Shown one piece after another: positions 41,754 to 52,220 of a stretch of DNA of 64,000 nt; the first letter of the stretch is position 1; every line of letters begins with the position of its first letter. The notes under the pieces were generated by a model, which was given only the letters and a program-made list of their open reading frames with translations, made no database searches and had not been told where the DNA came from. This DNA comes from Polaromonas sp. (GTDB lineage: Bacteria; Pseudomonadota; Gammaproteobacteria; Burkholderiales; Burkholderiaceae_C), in contig NZ_JAAFGZ010000007.1 of assembly GCF_010365105.1 (NCBI RefSeq), positions 1-64,000 of the forward strand, in the 5' to 3' direction. A program made the translations under genes and the position numbers.

Positions 41754-43205
41754 ATGAACGATATTCAAATGCTGATGGGCGGCGCCCCGCGTGGCGCCTC
41801 CAATGGCGCGACCTTCGAGCGCCGCAACCCGCTGGACCAGAGCGTCGCCACGCGCGCGCCGGCCGCCACGCCAGACGACGCCAGGGCCGCCGTGGACGCC
41901 GCCGCCAAAGCCTTTCCTGCCTGGGCCGCCATGGGTCCGGGCGAGCGGCGTGCGCTGCTGATGAAAGCTGCGCAGGCGCTGGAAGCCAAAGGCGACGCCT
42001 TTGCCGCCACCATGGCCGCCGAAACCGGTGCCTCCGGCCTCTGGGCCGGCTTCAACGTGCATCTGGCCGCCGGCATGCTGCTGGAGGCCGCCTCCATCAC
42101 GACGCAGATCAGTGGCGAGGTGATCCCGTCGAATGTGCCCGGCAACCTGGCCCTGGCGGTGCGCCAGCCCGCCGGCGTGGTGCTGGGCATTGCGCCCTGG
42201 AACGCGCCCATCATTCTGGCGGTGCGCGCCATTGCCACGCCGCTGGCCTGCGGCAACACGGTAGTTCTCAAAGGCTCGGAAATCAGCCCCGCCACGCACG
42301 GCCTGATCATCGAAGCGTTGCAGGAAGCCGGTTTTCCGGCCGGCGTGGTCAACTTTGTCACCAACGCCCCGGCCGATGCCGGCGCTGTGGTCGAGGCCAT
42401 GGTGGCGCATCCGGCGGTGCGCCGCGTCAACTTCACCGGCTCCACCCGCGTCGGCAAGATCATCGCGCAGACCTGCGCCAAACACCTCAAGCAGGCGGTG
42501 CTGGAACTGGGCGGCAAAGCGCCGTTTCTGGTGCTGGACGACGCCGACATCGATGCAGCTGTCGCCGCTGCCGCGTTTGGCGCTTTTGCCAATTCGGGGC
42601 AAATCTGCATGTCCACCGAGCGCATCGTGGTCGATGTGGCCGTGGCTGACGAGTTTGTCGCCAAACTGTCCGCCAAGGCACAAAGCCTGCCGCTGGGCGA
42701 CCCGCGCCAGGGTCCGGTTGTGCTGGGTTCCGTGGTGGACATGACGACCGTGGCGCATTGCAACGCACTGATCGATGACGCGCTGGCCAAGGGCGCCACG
42801 CTGGTGTGCGGCGGCAAGGCGACCAACACGCTGATGCCGGCCACGCTGCTGGACCATGTCACGTCCGAGATGCTCATTTACCGCGAAGAGTCGTTTGCCC
42901 CGGTGAAGGCCATCGTGCGCGTGAAGGGGGTCGAGCAAGCCATTGCTGTTGCCAACGACAACGAATTTGGCCTGGCTTCTGCGGTTTTTGGCCGCGATAC
43001 GGCACGCGCCTGGCAGGTTGCCTCGCGCATTGAGGCCGGCATCTGCCACATCAACGGCCCGACCGTGCATGACGAGGCGCAAATGCCTTTCGGCGGCATG
43101 AAGGGTTCCGGTTATGGCCGGTTCGGCGGCAAGGCGGGCATCGAGGCCTTCACCGAACTACGCTGGATCACGATGCAGACGGCTCCGCGCCACTATCCGT
43201 TCTGA
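41754..43205 (+). CDS. Aldehyde dehydrogenase, probably 4-hydroxybenzaldehyde/vanillin type
   Basis: A 483-residue NAD(P)-dependent aldehyde dehydrogenase. The catalytic Cys is in NSGQICMSTER, the general-base Glu in LELGGKAPF, and the NAD site in FTGSTRVGK. Its place after pchF and its family relation to vanillin/salicylaldehyde dehydrogenases point to oxidation of 4-hydroxybenzaldehyde to 4-hydroxybenzoate. The start is ATG 41754 with GAGAAAGA upstream; the frame is open further upstream but lacks family residues. Confidence 0.88.
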   Translation: MNDIQMLMGGAPRGASNGATFERRNPLDQSVATRAPAATPDDARAAVDAAAKAFPAWAAMGPGERRALLMKAAQALEAKGDAFAATMAAETGASGLWAGFNVHLAAGMLLEAASITTQISGEVIPSNVPGNLALAVRQPAGVVLGIAPWNAPIILAVRAIATPLACGNTVVLKGSEISPATHGLIIEALQEAGFPAGVVNFVTNAPADAGAVVEAMVAHPAVRRVNFTGSTRVGKIIAQTCAKHLKQAVLELGGKAPFLVLDDADIDAAVAAAAFGAFANSGQICMSTERIVVDVAVADEFVAKLSAKAQSLPLGDPRQGPVVLGSVVDMTTVAHCNALIDDALAKGATLVCGGKATNTLMPATLLDHVTSEMLIYREESFAPVKAIVRVKGVEQAIAVANDNEFGLASAVFGRDTARAWQVASRIEAGICHINGPTVHDEAQMPFGGMKGSGYGRFGGKAGIEAFTELRWITMQTAPRHYPF

Positions 43206-43340
43206 GGCTTGAAACCTGCCTTTCCCAAAGTCGGGGGAGCCTTGAAACAGCAAGTGACGTAGCGATGGCCGTCTGAAAACACCGAGTCGCTACCATTTAA
43301 TGGTGAAAAAAGCCTTCTGCGCAAGATGGATGGGCGTGTC

Positions 43341-43420
43341 CAGCTATATGTTTGATAGCAAACTTGTCGCCGGTGAAAAAAGCGCTGCAGCGCATTGCAC
43401 AAGCCAGCTTTTGCGCTTAT
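43341..43420 (+). repeat. Divergent copy of the dispersed repeat, copy 10
   Basis: GCTATATGTTTGATAGC and a later ACAAGCCAGCTTTTGCGC resemble parts of the family in both orientations. The match is weaker than other copies. The rest of the 211-base gap between the aldehyde dehydrogenase and norD holds nothing that I can support. Confidence 0.3.
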
Positions 43421-45495
43421 GCCGCCACCAGCCGCCGCAGCCAGTCGAGCAATACGCTCGGCAGCAATTCGGGACGGGGCAACAACGCGTAATGGTTGGG
43501 GCCGAACACGGCGGGCAGGTAATTGGCCGCCTGGCGGTCGATGGTCAGGCAAAACGGTGAAATGCCCTGCAGCTTGGCTTCAATCACGGCCTGGCGCAGG
43601 TCTTCAACCCCATAGCGGCCTTCGTAGTCGTCAATGTCGTTGGGCTTGCCGTCTGACAGCAGCAGCAACAATCGGTGCCCGGCGGGCTCTTTCATCAGTA
43701 GGGTAGCGGCATGACGCAGGGCGGCACCGGCGCGGGTGTAGTGTTCTGGCTCCAGGCCGGCGATGCGCTGCGCCACGGCGTTGTCGTATCGCTCGTCAAA
43801 GCGCTTGACGCTGCGCACCACGACCGCTTGCGGGCCTTCGCCTGAAAACGCCAGCACGCTGTAGGGCTCTGCCATGCCGTCCAGCGCAATGCACACCAGC
43901 AGCAGCGCTTCGCGCTCGACGTCGATGATGCGGCGGTCGGCGGCAATCCAGCCGTCGGTCGAGCCGCTGACATCGACCAGCAGCATGATGGCCATGTCGC
44001 GCCGGCTGCGCCGTTCGGTCTGGTAGAGGCGCTGCGCCATGGGCAGGCCGGCACGAAAATCGGCATAGCTTTCGGTATAGGCCTGCAGGTCAATGTCTTC
44101 GCCGTCGAGCTGCTTGCGCACGCGAACGCGCTGGGCGCGCAGCAATTCGAAGCGGCGGCGGATTTCATGCAGCATGCCGCGCCGTGCATCCAGCGTGTCA
44201 TCGACCCATTTTTGCGGTCCGTTGGGCGCGGGCAGCAGCAGCACGGTCGCGCCGGGATCACGGTAAGCGCCTGCGCGCCAGTCCCATTCGGGGTAATGCC
44301 GCCGGTCCGGTGCATCGCCCGGTTGGCCCGTCAGTTCACGCTTGGCGCGCTTCGTCTGGGAATCGGGTGGGTCATCGGAGATCAGCACCTCCTTGGGCTT
44401 GCCGGGGGCGGACACCAGCCGCGCCTCGGGCAACTCGGACAAGGCGTCGGCAAAATCTTCGGCGGCGGTGGTTTGGTCGCGGTCAGTGGGGCGCTGCAGG
44501 CCCATCGGGTCTTCAGCCTGTTCATGCGGCTGGGCGGTTTGAATCATCCAGGCGCCGGGTTTTTCGTCGTCCTCATCGTCGTCGCTTTCGCGCACCTCGG
44601 GCCTTCGCAGCAGGCGGGCGCTGCGGGGCTTGCTGGCGTCCGTGCTGTCGTCTTCATCTTCAGACGTTTGGCCGGACGCGCGCACGCTGGCGGGCGGCAC
44701 GCGCAGGTCGCCGGTCCAGCCGTCGCGCCATAACAGCCGCGTGCCCTTGAGCGCCCCGGCGGCTGTGCCGCCCAGCGCCGTTGACAGCGCCCGGGCGTGC
44801 TGTCGGACTTGCTCTGGCGTGGCGGGCAGCGCAAATAAGGCGGAGGCCAGGCCGCCCGGCAGTCTGGCGATGAATGCGGCATCACCGTCAACGCCCAGCA
44901 GCGCACGCACCAATTCTTCCATTGGCTGCAAGGACGCGGTAAAGACGCCCAGCTTGGGCCGCCGTTGCAGAGCCTCACGCCGCAGCGTCGCCAGCGGGGT
45001 GGCCATGCCGGGCAAAAGCCGGGCCAGCGCATCCTCGGCGGCACGCGCTTCCAGCAATAAATACAGCTCGCGTTCCAATGGCGGTGCTTCGGCAGGCAGA
45101 TGCGCGGCGCTGCCGCGTTGGGCGCGCATGGCCTGCTGCAGCGCCATGGTGCGAAAACGCGCGGTGGCCATGGCGGGGTCTTCGCCTGCTGCAAAGCGGG
45201 CGGGCAGCCAGATGCTGCGCCCGTCGGTGGCCGGAACAGCGTCGCGCACCGGTGGCAGTTGATGGCGCAGCAGCATGCGGCCAATCCAGGAGGGCGCCGC
45301 CGGCAGTTGGGCCACACGCAAGGCAAAGCTGCGGCCAAATACAGCGGCAATCAGCAGGTCAAGCCGTTGGGCCACATCGGCCAGTTGCAGCGGCGCTGGG
45401 CCGGTCGGCAGGGGACGGTGGCGCCGCCACAGCGCCTGCGCAAAAATCGTCGCGTGTCGCGCCGCGTCGGTGATGACGTCTTCTGCCTCGGCCAT
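43417..45495 (-). CDS. norD: NorD, VWA-domain nitric oxide reductase activation protein
   Basis: A 692-residue accessory protein. A long acidic and charged middle region (DEDDSTDASK and SDDDEDDE) leads into a C-terminal VWA domain with the MIDAS motif DVSGSTDG. With the MoxR ATPase NorQ it activates the NorBC reductase, probably by helping insert the non-haem iron. It is the last gene of the nor operon. The gap to norQ is 18 bases. Confidence 0.92.
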   Translation of the reverse strand: MAEAEDVITDAARHATIFAQALWRRHRPLPTGPAPLQLADVAQRLDLLIAAVFGRSFALRVAQLPAAPSWIGRMLLRHQLPPVRDAVPATDGRSIWLPARFAAGEDPAMATARFRTMALQQAMRAQRGSAAHLPAEAPPLERELYLLLEARAAEDALARLLPGMATPLATLRREALQRRPKLGVFTASLQPMEELVRALLGVDGDAAFIARLPGGLASALFALPATPEQVRQHARALSTALGGTAAGALKGTRLLWRDGWTGDLRVPPASVRASGQTSEDEDDSTDASKPRSARLLRRPEVRESDDDEDDEKPGAWMIQTAQPHEQAEDPMGLQRPTDRDQTTAAEDFADALSELPEARLVSAPGKPKEVLISDDPPDSQTKRAKRELTGQPGDAPDRRHYPEWDWRAGAYRDPGATVLLLPAPNGPQKWVDDTLDARRGMLHEIRRRFELLRAQRVRVRKQLDGEDIDLQAYTESYADFRAGLPMAQRLYQTERRSRRDMAIMLLVDVSGSTDGWIAADRRIIDVEREALLLVCIALDGMAEPYSVLAFSGEGPQAVVVRSVKRFDERYDNAVAQRIAGLEPEHYTRAGAALRHAATLLMKEPAGHRLLLLLSDGKPNDIDDYEGRYGVEDLRQAVIEAKLQGISPFCLTIDRQAANYLPAVFGPNHYALLPRPELLPSVLLDWLRRLVAA

Positions 45496-45513
45496 GCCGG
45501 TCTTGCGCCGGGT

Positions 45514-46335
45514 TCAGACGAACGTGGCGTCCACCAGATCGCGCATGGCGCCGATCAGTGACGGCTCGTCAGACAAAGGCGACACGATGGCGACGTAGCA
45601 GGCCAGCGGCACCGGTATGCCTGACGTGATGAGCCGTGCTGCTGCAATCAGCAGGCGCGTGCTCGGCACTTCGGCCAGGCCACGGTCCTGCAGACCACGC
45701 AGGCGCTGGCCCAGCCCGACCAGGCCGCGTGCAATCGTGGGGTCCACCCCGCCTTCGTGCGCAACGATGTCGGCTTCGCGCCCGGGCGGCGGAAAGCTGA
45801 AGTCGAGCGCGACAAAGCGCTGGCGGGTGCTGGGTTTCATGTCTTTGAGCATGCGCTGGTAGCCGGGGTTGTACGACACCACGAGCTGAAAACCTTCGGC
45901 CGCGTGGATCGTTTCACCGGTCTTGTCGATGGGCAAAATCCGCCGGTAATCGGTCAGGGGATGCAGCACCACCACAGTGTCCTGGCGCGCCTCGACCACT
46001 TCGTCGAGGTAACAGATGGCGCCTTCACGCACTGCGCGGGTCAGCGGGCCGTCCTGCCAGGCGGTGCCGTCATGGCGAATCAGGAAGCGGCCAACCAGAT
46101 CGCTGGCGGTGAGGTCGTCATGGCAGGAAATGGTGATCAGCGGTCGACCCAGCCGCCAGGCCATGAACTCGATGAATCGGGTCTTGCCGCAGCCGGTCGG
46201 GCCTTTGAGCATGACCGCCAGGTTGCGCGCATGGCATTGCTCGAACACCGCCACCTCGTCGCTGGTGGGCAGGTAGTAGGGCGCGTCGGCCGGTACCGCT
46301 TGCGCCGTCGTGTGTGGTGCCACCTCGCGGCTCAA
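45514..46335 (-). CDS. norQ: NorQ, MoxR-type AAA+ ATPase
   Basis: A 273-residue ATPase. Walker A is GPTGCGKTRF, Walker B region AICYLDEVVEA, and sensor 1 VVSYNPGYQ. NorQ proteins work with NorD in maturation of cNOR. Its start overlaps the norB stop by four bases, showing translational coupling. Confidence 0.92.
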   Translation of the reverse strand: MSREVAPHTTAQAVPADAPYYLPTSDEVAVFEQCHARNLAVMLKGPTGCGKTRFIEFMAWRLGRPLITISCHDDLTASDLVGRFLIRHDGTAWQDGPLTRAVREGAICYLDEVVEARQDTVVVLHPLTDYRRILPIDKTGETIHAAEGFQLVVSYNPGYQRMLKDMKPSTRQRFVALDFSFPPPGREADIVAHEGGVDPTIARGLVGLGQRLRGLQDRGLAEVPSTRLLIAAARLITSGIPVPLACYVAIVSPLSDEPSLIGAMRDLVDATFV

Positions 46336-47708
46336 GCCATCGCGGGACGCACCCGGCGGACAGGTTGCAGCCCCGGCTCCGGCTCACTCGAAACTTCGAA
46401 GCGCGGTGCGTGCCGGAAAAAATCGATGATGAACAAGGCGACGCCAATGGCAAAAATGGAAGCCGTGATGATCAGCATCACAAAGTGGATCTGGATTTTC
46501 AGCTGTGCGTCAAGGTAGCCCATGCCCATGATGCGTTCCAGGTACACCTGGCCGATACCGGCGGTGGCAAACGACAAGGTCATGCCGAACATGCCGGTAA
46601 TCTGCATCCAGAACGACACGTAGCCCATCGCAGTCCCTTCCTCGGGCCGGCGGGTGATCGACGGCAGGGCATAGGTGATCATGGCCAGCACGATCATCGC
46701 GTAGGCGCCATAGAACGCGGCATGGCCGTGCATCGCGGTGATCAGGGTGCCGTGCGTCCATTTGTTGACGCTGGGGAAGGTGTGTGCCAGGCCGAGCAGG
46801 CCGGCGCCAAACAGTGTGAACACCGCGCTGCCGACCGTCCAGTGCAACGCCAGCTTGTTGGGGTGCGCCAGGCCCGAACGCCGAATGGCCGAATAGGCAT
46901 AAATCGCCATGCCGATCAGCGCCAGTGGTTCCAGCGCGCTGAACAAGCCGCCGATGGGCAGCCAGTAGCTTGGCACGCCAACCCAGTAGTAATGGTGCGC
47001 AGTGCCAATGATGCCTGCGATGAACACCAGTCCGACGATGACATACAGCCACTTTTCCATCACTTCCCGGTCAGCGCCCGACAGGCGGATCAGCAGGTAG
47101 GCCAGAAAACCGCCCTGGATCATTTCCCACACACCCTCGACCCACAGGTGAATCGTCCACCAGCGGTAAAAAATCGCCACGGTGTAATTTTCAAACTCCA
47201 GCAGCGCCGGAAGGTACAGCAGCGCGGCCAGTCCCAGGCCACCCATCAGCACGCCTTCGGTGGTGGTGAAGCGACCCGATTTCTTGATGGTCATGGCAAT
47301 GTTGTAGAGAAACATCAGCATCACGATGACGATCACGATCTTGGAGGGCAGGGGCTGCTCGAGCAGCTTGTTGCCGGTGCCGTAGCGAAACAGATAGCCG
47401 GTGACGGTCGCAACGCCCATGACGGTCCACAACACAAGCTGGAAATAGGCCAGCTTCGTGCTGTAAAGCTCGGTGCGGGATTCGTCGGGCACCATCCAGT
47501 AGGTCGCGCCCATGAAGCCGGTCAGCACCCACACAATCAGCAAATTGGTATGGATGACCTTGGTGACGTCAAACGGCAGGATGTAGAGCAGCGGGTCGGG
47601 GCCCAGGTACTTGGCGGCCGACAGCAGGCCGAACACCAGTTGCAGGCCGAACAGGGCAACGGCCACGGCAAAGTACCAGTAGGCGACGGATTGGGATTTG
47701 TATCTCAT
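46332..47708 (-). CDS. norB: NorB, nitric oxide reductase catalytic subunit
   Basis: A 458-residue membrane protein with 12 hydrophobic segments, of the cNOR branch of haem-copper oxidases. Conserved histidines are seen in HLWVEGVWEMIQGG, AHHYYWVG and MHGHAAFYGAY, along with the conserved Glu residues of the family. It reduces two NO to N2O, taking electrons from NorC. The length is normal for cNOR and shorter than quinol-type qNOR, which fits the presence of a NorC. Confidence 0.95.
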   Translation of the reverse strand: MRYKSQSVAYWYFAVAVALFGLQLVFGLLSAAKYLGPDPLLYILPFDVTKVIHTNLLIVWVLTGFMGATYWMVPDESRTELYSTKLAYFQLVLWTVMGVATVTGYLFRYGTGNKLLEQPLPSKIVIVIVMLMFLYNIAMTIKKSGRFTTTEGVLMGGLGLAALLYLPALLEFENYTVAIFYRWWTIHLWVEGVWEMIQGGFLAYLLIRLSGADREVMEKWLYVIVGLVFIAGIIGTAHHYYWVGVPSYWLPIGGLFSALEPLALIGMAIYAYSAIRRSGLAHPNKLALHWTVGSAVFTLFGAGLLGLAHTFPSVNKWTHGTLITAMHGHAAFYGAYAMIVLAMITYALPSITRRPEEGTAMGYVSFWMQITGMFGMTLSFATAGIGQVYLERIMGMGYLDAQLKIQIHFVMLIITASIFAIGVALFIIDFFRHAPRFEVSSEPEPGLQPVRRVRPAMA

Positions 47709-47781
47709 GGCGATCTCCGGCGGGAGGGTGTTTGTCTGGATGAATGTGCGCCAAGAGCGCTTGGCAACAAGGCGAAGCCCA

Positions 47782-48648
47782 CTATTTGAGCGACGACAGA
47801 TAGGCAGCGAGCTGGTCGATCTGCGCGGGCGTCAGGTCCTTGGCATAGGTCGTCGGCATGAACGACACGCCGTTGGCCGAGTACATCGGCCCTGGCACGG
47901 TATGCGCACTGGGCTCAACGATCGACTCATGGATATAGCCCGCCAGATCTTTGGCCTTGCCCTTGTATTCACTCGAGGCCAGCAGCTTTTCCGTGCGCGC
48001 CGACAAGCCCGAAAGCGAAGGCCCCGCCATGTTCACGCCTGGCGCAATCGAGTGGCAGGCGGTACAGGCCGGCGCGGCGCTGCGAAACACTTTTTCACCC
48101 AGGGCAATCGGATTTTCGTCGCCTGCAACCGGTCGCGCCCCCGGCGGCGTTGTGCTTGCAGCGCCGCCTGCTCCAGTGCCTTGCTGGCCGACAGCCATGT
48201 CGGAGCCCGCCAGCGTCGCGCCCGTCACCAGGATAGGCCGCGGCGGCCAGCCCTGGTTGTCGACATTGCTGATCCAGTCGAGAAATGCAATCAGGTCGGC
48301 GATGTCGGTGTCGCTGAGGTCCTGCTTGGGCATCAGCCGGCGATGGCGGGTTTCGTCGTAGAACTTCGACGGGTCCTTCATGTAGGCCGTCAGGTAGGCT
48401 TCGCCGCGATGCTTGGTGATCTTGGTCAGGTCGGGCGCATAGTAGGCGCCTTCGCCAAAAACCGTATGGCAGTTGATGCAGTTGTTCTTGTGCCAGACGT
48501 CCTTGCCGCGCGTGACAGAGGTGGTGATCTTGTCGGCGTTGGTGAGCTTGCCGAATTGACGGTGGCTGTCAATGGTCATGCCGATGAATGCCACGGCAGC
48601 AATCACCGAAGAACCGATGGCGAACAGCCGGGTTTGTTTTTTGTTCAT
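47782..48648 (-). CDS. norC: NorC with an extra cytochrome c domain (di-haem)
   Basis: A 288-residue protein. A membrane anchor (residues 8-26, LFAIGSSVIAAVAFIGM) and a normal NorC domain with CINCH at 57-61 and Met106 are followed by a low-complexity Gly/Ala/Thr/Pro linker (about 145-178) and a second cytochrome domain with CTACH at 195-199. Typical NorC is a single-haem protein of about 150 residues, so this one carries an added electron-transfer domain. The norB gene follows after 73 bases. Confidence 0.9.
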   Translation of the reverse strand: MNKKQTRLFAIGSSVIAAVAFIGMTIDSHRQFGKLTNADKITTSVTRGKDVWHKNNCINCHTVFGEGAYYAPDLTKITKHRGEAYLTAYMKDPSKFYDETRHRRLMPKQDLSDTDIADLIAFLDWISNVDNQGWPPRPILVTGATLAGSDMAVGQQGTGAGGAASTTPPGARPVAGDENPIALGEKVFRSAAPACTACHSIAPGVNMAGPSLSGLSARTEKLLASSEYKGKAKDLAGYIHESIVEPSAHTVPGPMYSANGVSFMPTTYAKDLTPAQIDQLAAYLSSLK

Positions 48649-48660
48649 GGTGCGGTGTTC

Positions 48661-48780
48661 CTAGACACTGATGCCGGACCAGTATTTGATCGAAATGAAG
48701 GCCGCATAGCAGATGGCGAGCAAGATCAGCAGCACCACGACATGGCTGAATATTTTCAGCGGACCGATCCATTTTTCCAT
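48661..48780 (-). CDS. 39-residue single-span membrane protein upstream of norC
   Basis: A short frame that begins MEKWIGPLKIFSHVVVLLIL and continues as one hydrophobic span before ending KYWSGISV. ATG 48780 is preceded by AAGAAAGAG. Its stop codon overlaps the Shine-Dalgarno AGGA of norC 12 bases ahead of that start, so it is probably translated and coupled to norC. I do not recognise a family; a small subunit or assembly factor of the NO reductase is an inference from position. Confidence 0.65.
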   Translation of the reverse strand: MEKWIGPLKIFSHVVVLLILLAICYAAFISIKYWSGISV

Positions 48781-48883
48781 GAGCGTCTCTTTCTTGGTTG
48801 TGCCTCAATATAAAGTCAATAATGTATATTCTTAACGTATGTTTACAAAAGTACACACGCGCGAATCAAAGAATCAACGCACC

Positions 48884-48897
48884 TTGACATTAGTCAA
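48884..48897 (-). promoter_or_regulatory. Dnr/FNR-type box of the nor operon
   Basis: TTGACATTAGTCAA is a perfect inverted repeat TTGAC-N4-GTCAA. Its centre is about 110 bases from the first start codon (48780); a class II start point would be near 48849. An A/T-rich stretch with ATGTATATT near 48822 could hold an additional NsrR-like element, but this is weak. Confidence 0.7.
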
Positions 48898-48988
48898 CCT
48901 TGGAAGAAAAACCTGCCGATTGAGCCTGCCATCCATGTTATGAGGCACGGCTGCTGAACAAAAGATGGCTGTCGGCAAATGGAGTGCT

Positions 48989-49885
48989 TCAACGCATGGT
49001 GTGCAGTGGAATGTCTTTTGCCACCGCCAGTGCGTCAAGTTCCCGACGCGTTTGCGTGAGCAGGAAATCGGCGATGTGCTGACGCGAGGCCGGTGTCAGC
49101 AGGGTCCTGATGTCGCAAGAAGCCATGCCGGCTGCCGTGCACAGCGCTGCTGCAAAATGCGGCTCCAGCGCGGCCATCGCCACGCGACCATCCTTACACG
49201 CATAGACCCGATAACCGGCATGGGCGCCGCCAATCCAGCCCTCCGGTTGCGTCAGTCCCCATTGCCGGGGCAGCGCCAGGTAACCGGCGGCGACTGACAG
49301 TGCGACTTCGATGAACATGCCATGAGCCGCATTGACCGCGCCATCTGCGCTGTGCCGTAGCAGGCAGGCCTGCAGCACGGCTTCGGTGGCCATCAGGGAG
49401 CCGCCCATGTCCGCATACAGCGTGGCGGGCAGTTCCAGGCCGGGAACCAGGCCTTTTTCAGCCAGATACGTCAGGTCGTGACCCGGTTCTTCAGCGCGCC
49501 CGCCGGGGCTGCCCACGATGGCGACTTGCGACAGGGTGGGGTAGCGCGCATGCAGTGTTTCCCACGCAATGCCCAGCTTCTTGAAGGCCGAGGGACGAAA
49601 TGAGGTCAGCAGCACATCGGTTTGAGCCAGTTCATGGTGCAAAACTTCCTGGCCTTCTGCCGTTTTCAGGTCCGCCTTGCGCACCGCGATGCCCTCGTGC
49701 AACTGGTCATAGGCGGCCTGGTTGTAGCTGCCCATCGGGTCGCCGCCGGGCGGTTCAAGCTTCAGGCAGTCCGCGCCCATCCGGCGCAGTCGCATCAGCG
49801 CGGCCGGGCCGGGAAGGTTGAGCGCGAGGCTCAGGATGCGAACGCCGCGAAGGGGCAGGAAAGCGGGGATGGCGGTAGGTGTCAT
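48989..49885 (-). CDS. CoA transferase, CaiB/BaiF (family III) type, short
   Basis: A 298-residue protein with the N-terminal family signature GVRILSLALNLPGPAALMRLRRMGAD and LEPPGGDP; the catalytic Asp region is LYADMGGSLMATEAVL. Family III CoA transferases usually have 380-400 residues, so the C-terminal portion is shortened. It may be a 2-methylacyl-CoA racemase-like or aromatic-acid CoA transferase. The substrate is unknown. The 211-base gap towards nor carries the nor regulatory region. Confidence 0.82.
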   Translation of the reverse strand: MTPTAIPAFLPLRGVRILSLALNLPGPAALMRLRRMGADCLKLEPPGGDPMGSYNQAAYDQLHEGIAVRKADLKTAEGQEVLHHELAQTDVLLTSFRPSAFKKLGIAWETLHARYPTLSQVAIVGSPGGRAEEPGHDLTYLAEKGLVPGLELPATLYADMGGSLMATEAVLQACLLRHSADGAVNAAHGMFIEVALSVAAGYLALPRQWGLTQPEGWIGGAHAGYRVYACKDGRVAMAALEPHFAAALCTAAGMASCDIRTLLTPASRQHIADFLLTQTRRELDALAVAKDIPLHTMR

Positions 49886-49886
49886 G

Positions 49887-49941
49887 TGCTATAAAAATAG
49901 TAGCTGCTTGTGCAGGATGGATAAGCGCAAGAGGCCTAAAC
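49887..49941 (+). repeat. Dispersed AGCTGCT/AAAGGCC-type repeat, copy 11
   Basis: One of the best copies. TGCTATAAAAATAGTAGCTG is followed by TGCAGGATGGATAAGCGC and AAGAGGCCTAAA. It lies between the CoA transferase start and the 3' end of pobA. Confidence 0.7.
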
Positions 49942-50033
49942 GACATCCAATTTACCGCAAAAGCGCATCCACCATGAAAAACGGGCGACAACGCCGCCCG
50001 TGAACAGCCGGCAGACGCCGGTCCGGCGCTGCC

Positions 50034-51281
<1,248 letters not shown>

Positions 51282-51356
51282 TCAGCCTTCGAGATTAAAT
51301 CGGCATGGTGCGTGCCGCAAGCCCATGGGACCAGCTTTGTGCGATGTGCGTTATTG

Positions 51357-51375
51357 TTGTGCGATGATCGCGCAA
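51357..51375. promoter_or_regulatory. Candidate IclR-type operator overlapping the regulator start
   Basis: TTGTGCGATGATCGCGCAA is a 19-base near-perfect palindrome (one mismatch) that ends at the first base of the regulator ATG. A second TTGTGCGATG half lies about 20 bases upstream. This placement suits autoregulation and control of pobA. Confidence 0.5.
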
Positions 51376-52220
51376 TGCCTGTGAAAACGACACGATTGAC
51401 ATCTCCTGGCGCCTTGCCGATTGCCAAGGCCGACATGATCGAGGGCATGGCCAAGGGCATGGCCGTGCTGGAGAGTTTTGACACACAGCGCCAGCGTCTC
51501 AATGCCACGCTGGCCGCCGAACGGGCGGGCATCACGCGCGCTGCGGCGCGCCGCCATCTGCTGACGCTGGCGCACCTGGGCTATCTGGAAACCGATGGCA
51601 GTTACTTCTGGCTGGCGGCCAAGGTGCTGCGGTTTTCAGGCAGCTACCTGGCCACTTCACGCTTGCCGCGCGCGGTGCAGCCGACGCTCAACCGGCTGGC
51701 CGTGCAGACCCGGGCTTCTTTTTCAGTGGTGGTGCTTGATGGCGACGAGGTGGTCATCGTGGCCCGAAGCGATGTTGAATGGCGGCGTTCACCGGATGAA
51801 AAAACGGTCTCTGCCAAACTGCTCGCCTACGGCCTGCACCTGGGTGCCCGCCTGCCGACGCATGCCACCTCGACCGGGCGCGTGTTGCTGGCCGCCAAGC
51901 CTGAAGGCGAGGCGAGCGCCTGGCTCAAAAACAGGTCTGAAAACGGCGGACTGGCCCGGTTGACGCTGCACACGGTGACCGACCCGTCCCAGCTCAGCCA
52001 GCTGATTGACCGTGTACGCATTGATGATTTCAGCGTGATCAGCGAAGAGCATGAGCTCGATGTACTTGCCCTGGCCGTGCCGCTGCGCGACATGCAGGGG
52101 CGCACGGTGGCGGCGCTCAATGTCGTGAGTTCTCCGCAGCGGCTGACGGCCGAAACGCTAAGGCGTGAGCTGCTGCCGTTGCTGCTGGACGCCGCACGCG
52201 AATTGCGGCCGCTGCTTTGA
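51375..52220 (+). CDS. pobR: IclR-family regulator (PobR/PcaR-like)
   Basis: A 281-residue regulator. The N-terminal winged HTH holds MIEGMAKGMAVLESF and GITRAAARRHLLTLAHLGYLE. The C-terminal effector domain has TSTGRVLLA and EEHELDVLALAVPLRD, typical of PcaR/PobR/PcaU-type proteins that sense aromatic acids. It is divergent from pobA and very likely its regulator. The start at ATG 51375 (MPVKTTRLTSPG) fits; a longer frame upstream crosses the palindrome and has no family support. Confidence 0.85.
   Translation: MPVKTTRLTSPGALPIAKADMIEGMAKGMAVLESFDTQRQRLNATLAAERAGITRAAARRHLLTLAHLGYLETDGSYFWLAAKVLRFSGSYLATSRLPRAVQPTLNRLAVQTRASFSVVVLDGDEVVIVARSDVEWRRSPDEKTVSAKLLAYGLHLGARLPTHATSTGRVLLAAKPEGEASAWLKNRSENGGLARLTLHTVTDPSQLSQLIDRVRIDDFSVISEEHELDVLALAVPLRDMQGRTVAALNVVSSPQRLTAETLRRELLPLLLDAARELRPLL

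Follow-up and report, generated by a model that had tools for sequence, protein, structure and literature searches.

A Small Membrane Protein Gene Directly Ahead of norC in Two-Haem NO Reductase Operons: Probably an Overlooked Part of a Denitrification Enzyme

Introduction

The cNORs are a main maker of N2O in denitrification. cNOR is usually described as an assembly of NorB and NorC (PMC13036017), and the Thermus enzyme as a heterotrimer, NorCBH, in which NorH is the third subunit (PMC5748679). Regarding other respiratory enzymes, PMC6134056 presents TorE and NapE as small single-span proteins, encoded in anaerobic respiration operons, that stabilise a membrane-anchored c-type cytochrome, and PMC10433244 presents CcoM as a 36 aa subunit of the cbb3 oxidase of Pseudomonas stutzeri. 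CydX of cytochrome bd oxidase is described as a 37 aa single-helix accessory subunit that is easily missed by annotation.

A small gene encoding a product of 39 residues can be found at the head of a nor operon of Polaromonas sp., within the 64,000 nt stretch of DNA analyzed here as a whole (the window). This product is probably an overlooked small part of a two-haem denitrification enzyme. Neither the small protein nor a two-haem NorC is described among the matches listed by a literature search, which covered mostly open papers and is not proof of absence; looking specifically for a two-haem NorC likewise yielded no paper. Neither "norC" nor "nitric oxide" occurs in the text of PMC10903887, which surveys small membrane proteins, and passages of PMC13086519 dealing with the norCBQD cluster located after nirK clade II in Stutzerimonas do not mention the small gene.

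Organization of the nor Locus

The small gene, norC, norB, norQ, and norD form, in this order, a five-gene unit on the minus strand (Table 1). The first-pass annotation had proposed an unannotated 39-residue membrane protein at the head of this operon, and re-reading of the sequence confirmed its frame, coordinates, and peptide (MEKWIGPLKIF...YWSGISV). The purine-rich site noted 5' of the ORF is indeed present ahead of the ATG, as AAGAAAGAGA, and the stop codon (TAG, 48663-48661) overlaps, as claimed, the AGGA of the norC Shine-Dalgarno, located 10 nt 5' of the norC ATG at 48648. That the ORF heads the operon before norC also stands, with the qualification that norC is here of the two-haem type and not of the usual one-haem form. 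Its description as the first frame after the Dnr/FNR box holds only if conserved frames are considered; by position alone, a GTG frame of 95 codons comes before it, with its start at 48856.

Table 1. Features of the nor locus in the window.
Feature	Position	Strand	Basis
Dnr/NnrR/FNR-type palindrome, exact, TTGACTAATGTCAA	48884..48897	.	TTGAC-N4-GTCAA, 103 nt before small-gene ATG
Probable ribosome-binding site of the small gene, purine-rich AAGAAAGAGA	48786..48795	-	Sequence; GGAG-type sites nearby in many relatives
Small membrane protein gene	48661..48780	-	39 codons + TAG; open frame, conservation, selection, helix model, motif, conserved face
Probable norC Shine-Dalgarno, AGGA, overlapping the small-gene stop codon	48659..48662	-	Sequence
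norC, two-haem type	47782..48648	-	N-terminal anchor, NorC domain (CINCH), linker, second c domain (CTACH)
norB, catalytic subunit	46332..47708	-	P. aeruginosa NorB match; HLWVEGVWE, HHYYW, FSALEP, HGHAAFYGAY conserved
norQ, MoxR-type AAA+ ATPase	45514..46335	-	AAA_5, CbbQ_C profiles
norD, VWA-domain protein	43417..45495	-	VWA profile

The partner genes are those of a cNOR operon, namely a NorB of the cNOR family together with NorC, NorQ, and NorD. The conserved motifs of NorB (Table 1) are those of its active site. NorB matches that of P. aeruginosa (PDB 3o0r) at E 2.1e-106, with the catalytic motifs kept, and NorC residues 5-137 match NorC of the same structure at E 1.1e-24. The single haem c expected of NorC in a cNOR is not what the window shows: this NorC has 288 aa and two CXXCH motifs, compared with 146-150 aa for the one-haem NorC of solved cNORs. 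Two CXXCH motifs can be found in NorC of all 104 loci in which norC is complete and accompanied by the small gene (genome repeats included). The predicted structure of the two-haem NorC was only fair (pLDDT 71.7) and was left unused.

The genome to which the window belongs has one cNorB at E <= 1e-40. On another of its contigs, the cd1 haem domain profile is strongly matched three times in succession (G000 C37:20838-28708), marking a nir-type cluster away from the nor operon, and for nirK the copper nitrite reductase profile gave nothing above the family cut-off in this genome.

Distribution of the Small Gene

A NorC search of GTDB genomes yielded 77 loci of the two-haem norC type, 75 of them with upstream sequence; in the other two (L073 and L083) this sequence is absent and they stay outside the count. 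Conservation of the reading frame upstream of norC in relatives, which the first-pass annotation had put forward as a check, was found throughout: in 75/75 loci the small gene lies directly before norC (profile-confirmed), as a small hydrophobic frame ending W-x-x-I-x-V, 8-60 nt before norC. It is also present in 22 of 22 further genomes with the two-haem norC type, the window's own included (6 + 14 + 2), and in both plasmids with this type, the three sets overlapping in part. Hosts belong to the Comamonadaceae, Oxalobacteraceae, Pseudomonadaceae, Marinobacteraceae, and Nitrosomonadaceae, and the two-haem class has been seen in Polaromonas, Massilia, Acidovorax, Stutzerimonas, Marinobacter, Accumulibacter, and Nitrosospira, among others. 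Members from Polyangiaceae and Gemmatimonadota are metagenome-assembled genomes, possibly with misbinned contigs.

The two-haem NorC is uncommon, being encountered in 6/150 genomes of the family, in 14/148 of the family of genome G310, and in 3/398 genomes sampled evenly across the phylum. G310 itself harbors two cNorBs (contigs C16 and C1): one, at 85% identity, belongs to the small-gene clade, and the other, at 45%, is of the ordinary type. Among 242 plasmid records with a NorB match, two are of the small-gene clade (80-90% identity) and the other 240 remain below 60%, two Thermus records being the ones examined among these; the small frame is left unannotated in both plasmid records, the PLSDB gene table being incomplete. 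Upstream neighbors differ from locus to locus, the largest family of upstream frames being common to only 8/75 loci (six contigs have less than 4 kb upstream). Since the upstream frames vary and the small gene stays, it travels with norC and not with its upstream neighbors.

In the window, the small gene and norC share one frame, with TAG and 12 nt between them, and the small frame might be taken for an N-terminal extension of NorC, attained by stop read-through or hidden by a mis-called start. We give this reading next to no credence. The norC gaps of relatives (such as 8, 10, 13, 16, 17, 20, 22, and 40 nt) put the two genes in different frames, which refutes the extension as a general mechanism; norC starts with Met in 42/42 aligned rows; and the topologies would clash, a C-out helix being followed by an N-in anchor.

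Regarding the NO reductases that carry the gene, the class set comprised 369 genomes, 78 of which have a NorB match at E <= 1e-40, in 81 places. The NorC type was read for the best 30 of these 81 places: 26 have a one-haem NorC, three a two-haem NorC with the small gene, and one (G361) a two-haem NorC without it. The small gene was found before none of the 26 one-haem norC genes among these best 30 of 81 places, the upstream sequence being shorter than 400 nt in two of these loci (197 and 389 nt), nor was it found before norC in the outlying two-haem locus of G361 (L089/L143), where identity is 52% for NorB and 31% for NorC. G361 may be an outgroup that split off before the small gene arose, or may have lost it; its lack of the gene indicates that a two-haem NorC alone does not require the small protein. 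Because it is absent from 26/26 one-haem loci and from one outlying two-haem locus, the small protein is, going by the sequences compared, not a general cNOR component. Other hydrophobic short frames occur within 250 nt upstream in 8/26 one-haem loci (L090, L091, L098, L105, L109, L111, L113, and L115), none of them ending W-x-x-I-x-V.

When the 369 class genomes were searched with the small-protein profile, strong matches were obtained only in the three genomes with a NorB of the small-gene clade (E 2.3e-20, 8.8e-17, and 6.6e-5). As for unlinked copies, the same genomes gave only seven weak matches (E 0.002-0.01, over 17-27 columns), which lie inside frames of 60-1495 codons and were taken as chance, G361 being absent from the matches; a search for a second copy in the window's own genome gave only a weak match (E 0.01) within a 441-codon frame. 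A quickly built NorB tree with 108 rows places all 82 small-gene rows on one side of a branch with an SH-aLRT of 100 (L073 and L083, without upstream sequence, being labelled small-gene-positive by default), and a single change accounts for the distribution of the gene; the tree program warns of long branches, above all L089 (G361). The small gene has one origin on this tree.

Selection on the Protein

A frame of 39 codons is by itself uninformative, because 110 frames of at least 30 aa overlap the surrounding 9 kb (43000-52000). It is comparison that lifts the small frame above chance: the relatives with upstream DNA all carry the frame, and four close loci show a codon-position pattern; conservation and codon pattern together rule out a chance frame. 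Between the window and three Polaromonas-type loci (L009, L010, and L011), synonymous sites differ by 0.35-0.61 and non-synonymous sites by 0.05-0.07. In four close loci of the Polaromonas type, the first codon position is identical in 35 of the 40 codons (counting the stop), the second in 38, and the third in 15. Identity among them falls from 73% within the frame to 26% in the sequence immediately upstream, and to 8% over the 170 nt that precede the Dnr box. Read in frame, the 921 pairs with pS 0.05-0.65 have a median dN/dS of 0.46, compared with 1.03 and 1.46 in the shifted frames (1983 and 2005 pairs, respectively), rough figures, as the all-pairs comparison includes diverged pairs.

The alignment holds 64 sequences out of 76, after removal of 12 that were identical or similar, and includes L024 with a longer N-terminus (57 aa). 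Stops occur in 59/64 and 17/64 rows in the shifted frames. The test for synonymous-site excess called for in the first-pass annotation shows selection on the protein in the small-gene frame only, and a search for frame-disrupting substitutions, as a sign against the gene, revealed none, with no internal stop in any of the 64 aligned rows. It is nearly certain from these patterns that the small ORF encodes a selected protein tied to the two-haem cNOR.

These data bear on whether translation itself, and not its product, matters, the ORF being a regulatory leader that couples ribosomes to norC. The overlap of its stop with the norC Shine-Dalgarno and the gap of 8-60 nt would suit such a leader. 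However, protein-level selection is found in one frame only, the gap length and the start codon of the small gene differ among relatives, and the invariant C-terminal residues and helical conservation period described below are unexpected of a leader, so that this explanation seems very improbable.

Upstream Control

The Dnr/FNR box that had been noticed upstream is exact in the window but is not general: of 76 regions, window included, just 4 have an exact box in the 500 nt ahead of norC. Allowing one mismatch, a box can be found in 15/76 regions, in 9 of which the sole match is within the small gene itself; among random 500 nt stretches of the loci, 3.75% have a box. General Dnr control of the operon is ruled out by the presence of the box in few upstream regions and, since the exact box is limited to these four, predicted control is different between hosts. 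One plasmid copy adjoins norR. The window as a whole has five exact TTGAY-N4-RTCAA boxes in its 64 kb (19533, 23073, 23157, 27128, and 48884), and 11 with one mismatch compared with a mean of 4.1 in shuffles.

Protein Anatomy and Possible Docking

The members of the family are 36-45 residues long, depending on the starts chosen. For the window peptide, the predicted structure is one helix spanning residues 5-33 (pLDDT 88.9), followed by the C-terminal motif W34-S-G-I37-S-V39. Counting from the C-terminus, W at -6, I/V at -3, and a terminal V are present in 82/82 distinct sequences, Y at -15 in 80/82, and K/R at -31 in 76/82. The fixed distance from W to the C-terminus suggests a tail fitting a pocket. 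Taking the last 36 residues, K+R averages 1.33 in the first nine and 0.30 in the last nine; with basic residues on the N side, the positive-inside rule predicts an N-in/C-out topology. The helix conservation period peaks at 100 degrees per residue, a value matched in 29, 50, or 72 of 5000 shuffles according to the stretch considered, and the conserved face (-28, -25, -21, -18, -14, and -11/-10) comprises many small residues. Such a face is the look of a helix that may be packed on a protein partner. The traits of an accessory subunit that can be recognized are one predicted helix, a length under about 60 aa, and a constant operon partner.

Mutual information between the small protein and NorB or NorC was calculated over 80 joint rows, with an effective number of 33. 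The top small protein-NorB pairs, -17/421 and -36/428 (z 7.1), are both in the last NorB helix, and the weaker pairs -24/428 and -4/398 point in the same direction; the remaining pairs above z 4 lead to different positions (NorB 160, 355, 444, and 446). When 60 uncoupled simulations on the same tree were used as a null, the best small protein-NorB pair was matched in 4/60 and the second in 0/60, the number of pairs in NorB residues 390-435, a region chosen after seeing the data, in 3/60, and the total of pairs over z 4 in 42/60, which is not significant overall. No small protein-NorC covariation rose above this null, the best NorC pair being matched in 50/60 simulations. Covariation is therefore only a hint that the small protein may lie near the last helix of NorB.

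Proposed Role in the Two-Haem Enzyme

With regards to function, the small protein is likely to be a constitutive single-span third subunit of the cNOR of the two-haem-NorC class, and it would stay in the finished enzyme instead of acting in assembly alone. It can be hypothesized that one helix face, with its small residues, packs on NorB and/or on the NorC anchor, and that the tail, whose invariant terminal Val stands five residues after the invariant Trp, occupies a fixed pocket on the periplasmic surface, at the meeting point of NorB and the haem domains of NorC. The small protein would thereby keep NorB and its two-haem partner correctly positioned relative to each other, for stability and electron transfer, a role analogous to those of CydX, CcoM, and TorE/NapE in their own enzymes. 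Translation first, directly ahead of norC, would suit co-translational assembly. A more elaborate picture, which is possible and offered tentatively, is that of a distinct class of three-subunit NO reductase, in which a small subunit of 36-45 residues would run along the last helix of NorB, its buried W-x-x-I-x-V tail would clamp the haem domains of NorC, and the second haem would accept and hand on electrons from a variety of donors; the class would then be recognized by its small subunit.

Against the reading as a third subunit, accessory proteins with a single span can also serve as factors for assembly. The small protein might bind nascent NorC or NorB, help NorQ/NorD to insert FeB, or assist haem c attachment in the second domain, and then be absent from the finished enzyme, as could be envisaged from the operon it shares with norQ and norD. 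This reading is weakened by the one-haem norC loci, all 26 of which are without the small gene, indicating that the small protein is not needed for the FeB step common to all cNORs. In addition, the invariance of the tail and the conservation of one helix face are in keeping with a lasting interface, although a transient one is also possible, and a role restricted to assembly or maturation is accordingly considered unlikely, if still a serious competitor of the third-subunit reading.

In practical terms, a conserved component omitted by automatic annotation would be missing from clones built from the annotated norC start, with a possible loss of yield or activity. The small gene also provides a short sequence by which the two-haem cNOR class can be specifically recognized, and the number of subunits of the two-haem NO reductase is now a directly testable question.

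Comparison with Known Systems

Comparison of the window peptide with Pfam, NCBIfam, and PHROGs gave no match at E <= 1, and when 64 members were compared with Pfam and NCBIfam at E <= 0.1, no family was matched by more than two of them; the best values, E 0.0056 (DUF4044) and 0.0048 (FpoJ), were taken as chance among hydrophobic helices. The small-protein profile found no PDB sequence at E <= 10, nor did Foldseek find any structure at E <= 10 with the helix model, a lone helix holding little fold information.

The small protein could nevertheless be a divergent member of a known small-subunit family, such as CcoQ, CydX, CcoS, NapE/TorE, Thermus NorH, or NorF, these being the same kind of protein in a similar operon setting; moreover TorE and NapE bind the anchor of a c-type cytochrome, according to PMC6134056. 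Such membership looks most improbable, as CcoQ/FixQ, CydX, CcoS, and NapE/TorE are not among the Pfam/NCBIfam matches listed for the 64 members at E <= 0.1. Of the likeness to CcoQ and CydX subunits drawn in the first-pass annotation, the kind of protein holds, although neither family scored.

Thermus NorH resembles the small protein in being a small membrane protein of a norCB operon and a third cNOR component. Unlike the small protein, it has 98 aa and more than one hydrophobic span and is encoded directly after norB; with a hhalign probability of 5%, homology was not supported, and identity with NorH is ruled out by length, spans, downstream position, and this probability. By eye, Thermus NorC (L147:1795-2460) appears to have two N-terminal hydrophobic spans, the first of which would be opposite in topology to the small protein.

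CcoQ/FixQ of cbb3 oxidase is a single-span small subunit beside c-type cytochrome subunits, as the small protein would be. CcoQ/FixQ is N-out/C-in with a charged cytoplasmic tail, whereas the small protein carries its basic residues on the N side and ends in a short tail with few charges. CydX, encoded after cydAB, belongs to an unrelated enzyme. CcoM, a single helix that is not known to be encoded with the operon of its enzyme, belongs to a different enzyme and is not reached in the PDB by the small-protein profile, but that enzyme is one of the haem-copper oxidase superfamily, and the lengths are similar. TorE and NapE (PMC6134056) share with the small protein a small size, a single span, and an anaerobic respiration operon; TorE differs in its 56 aa and its NapC/NirT-type cytochrome partners, and the family is not among the Pfam matches of the members. 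NorF, a protein of about 80 aa in nor/nir clusters for which PMC6152468 quotes 61-82 residues, differs in length from the family of 36-45 aa. Finally, NorBC from P. aeruginosa (PDB 3o0r), the canonical one-haem cNOR, has a NorB and a NorC homologous to those of the two-haem operon, its NorC carrying one haem.
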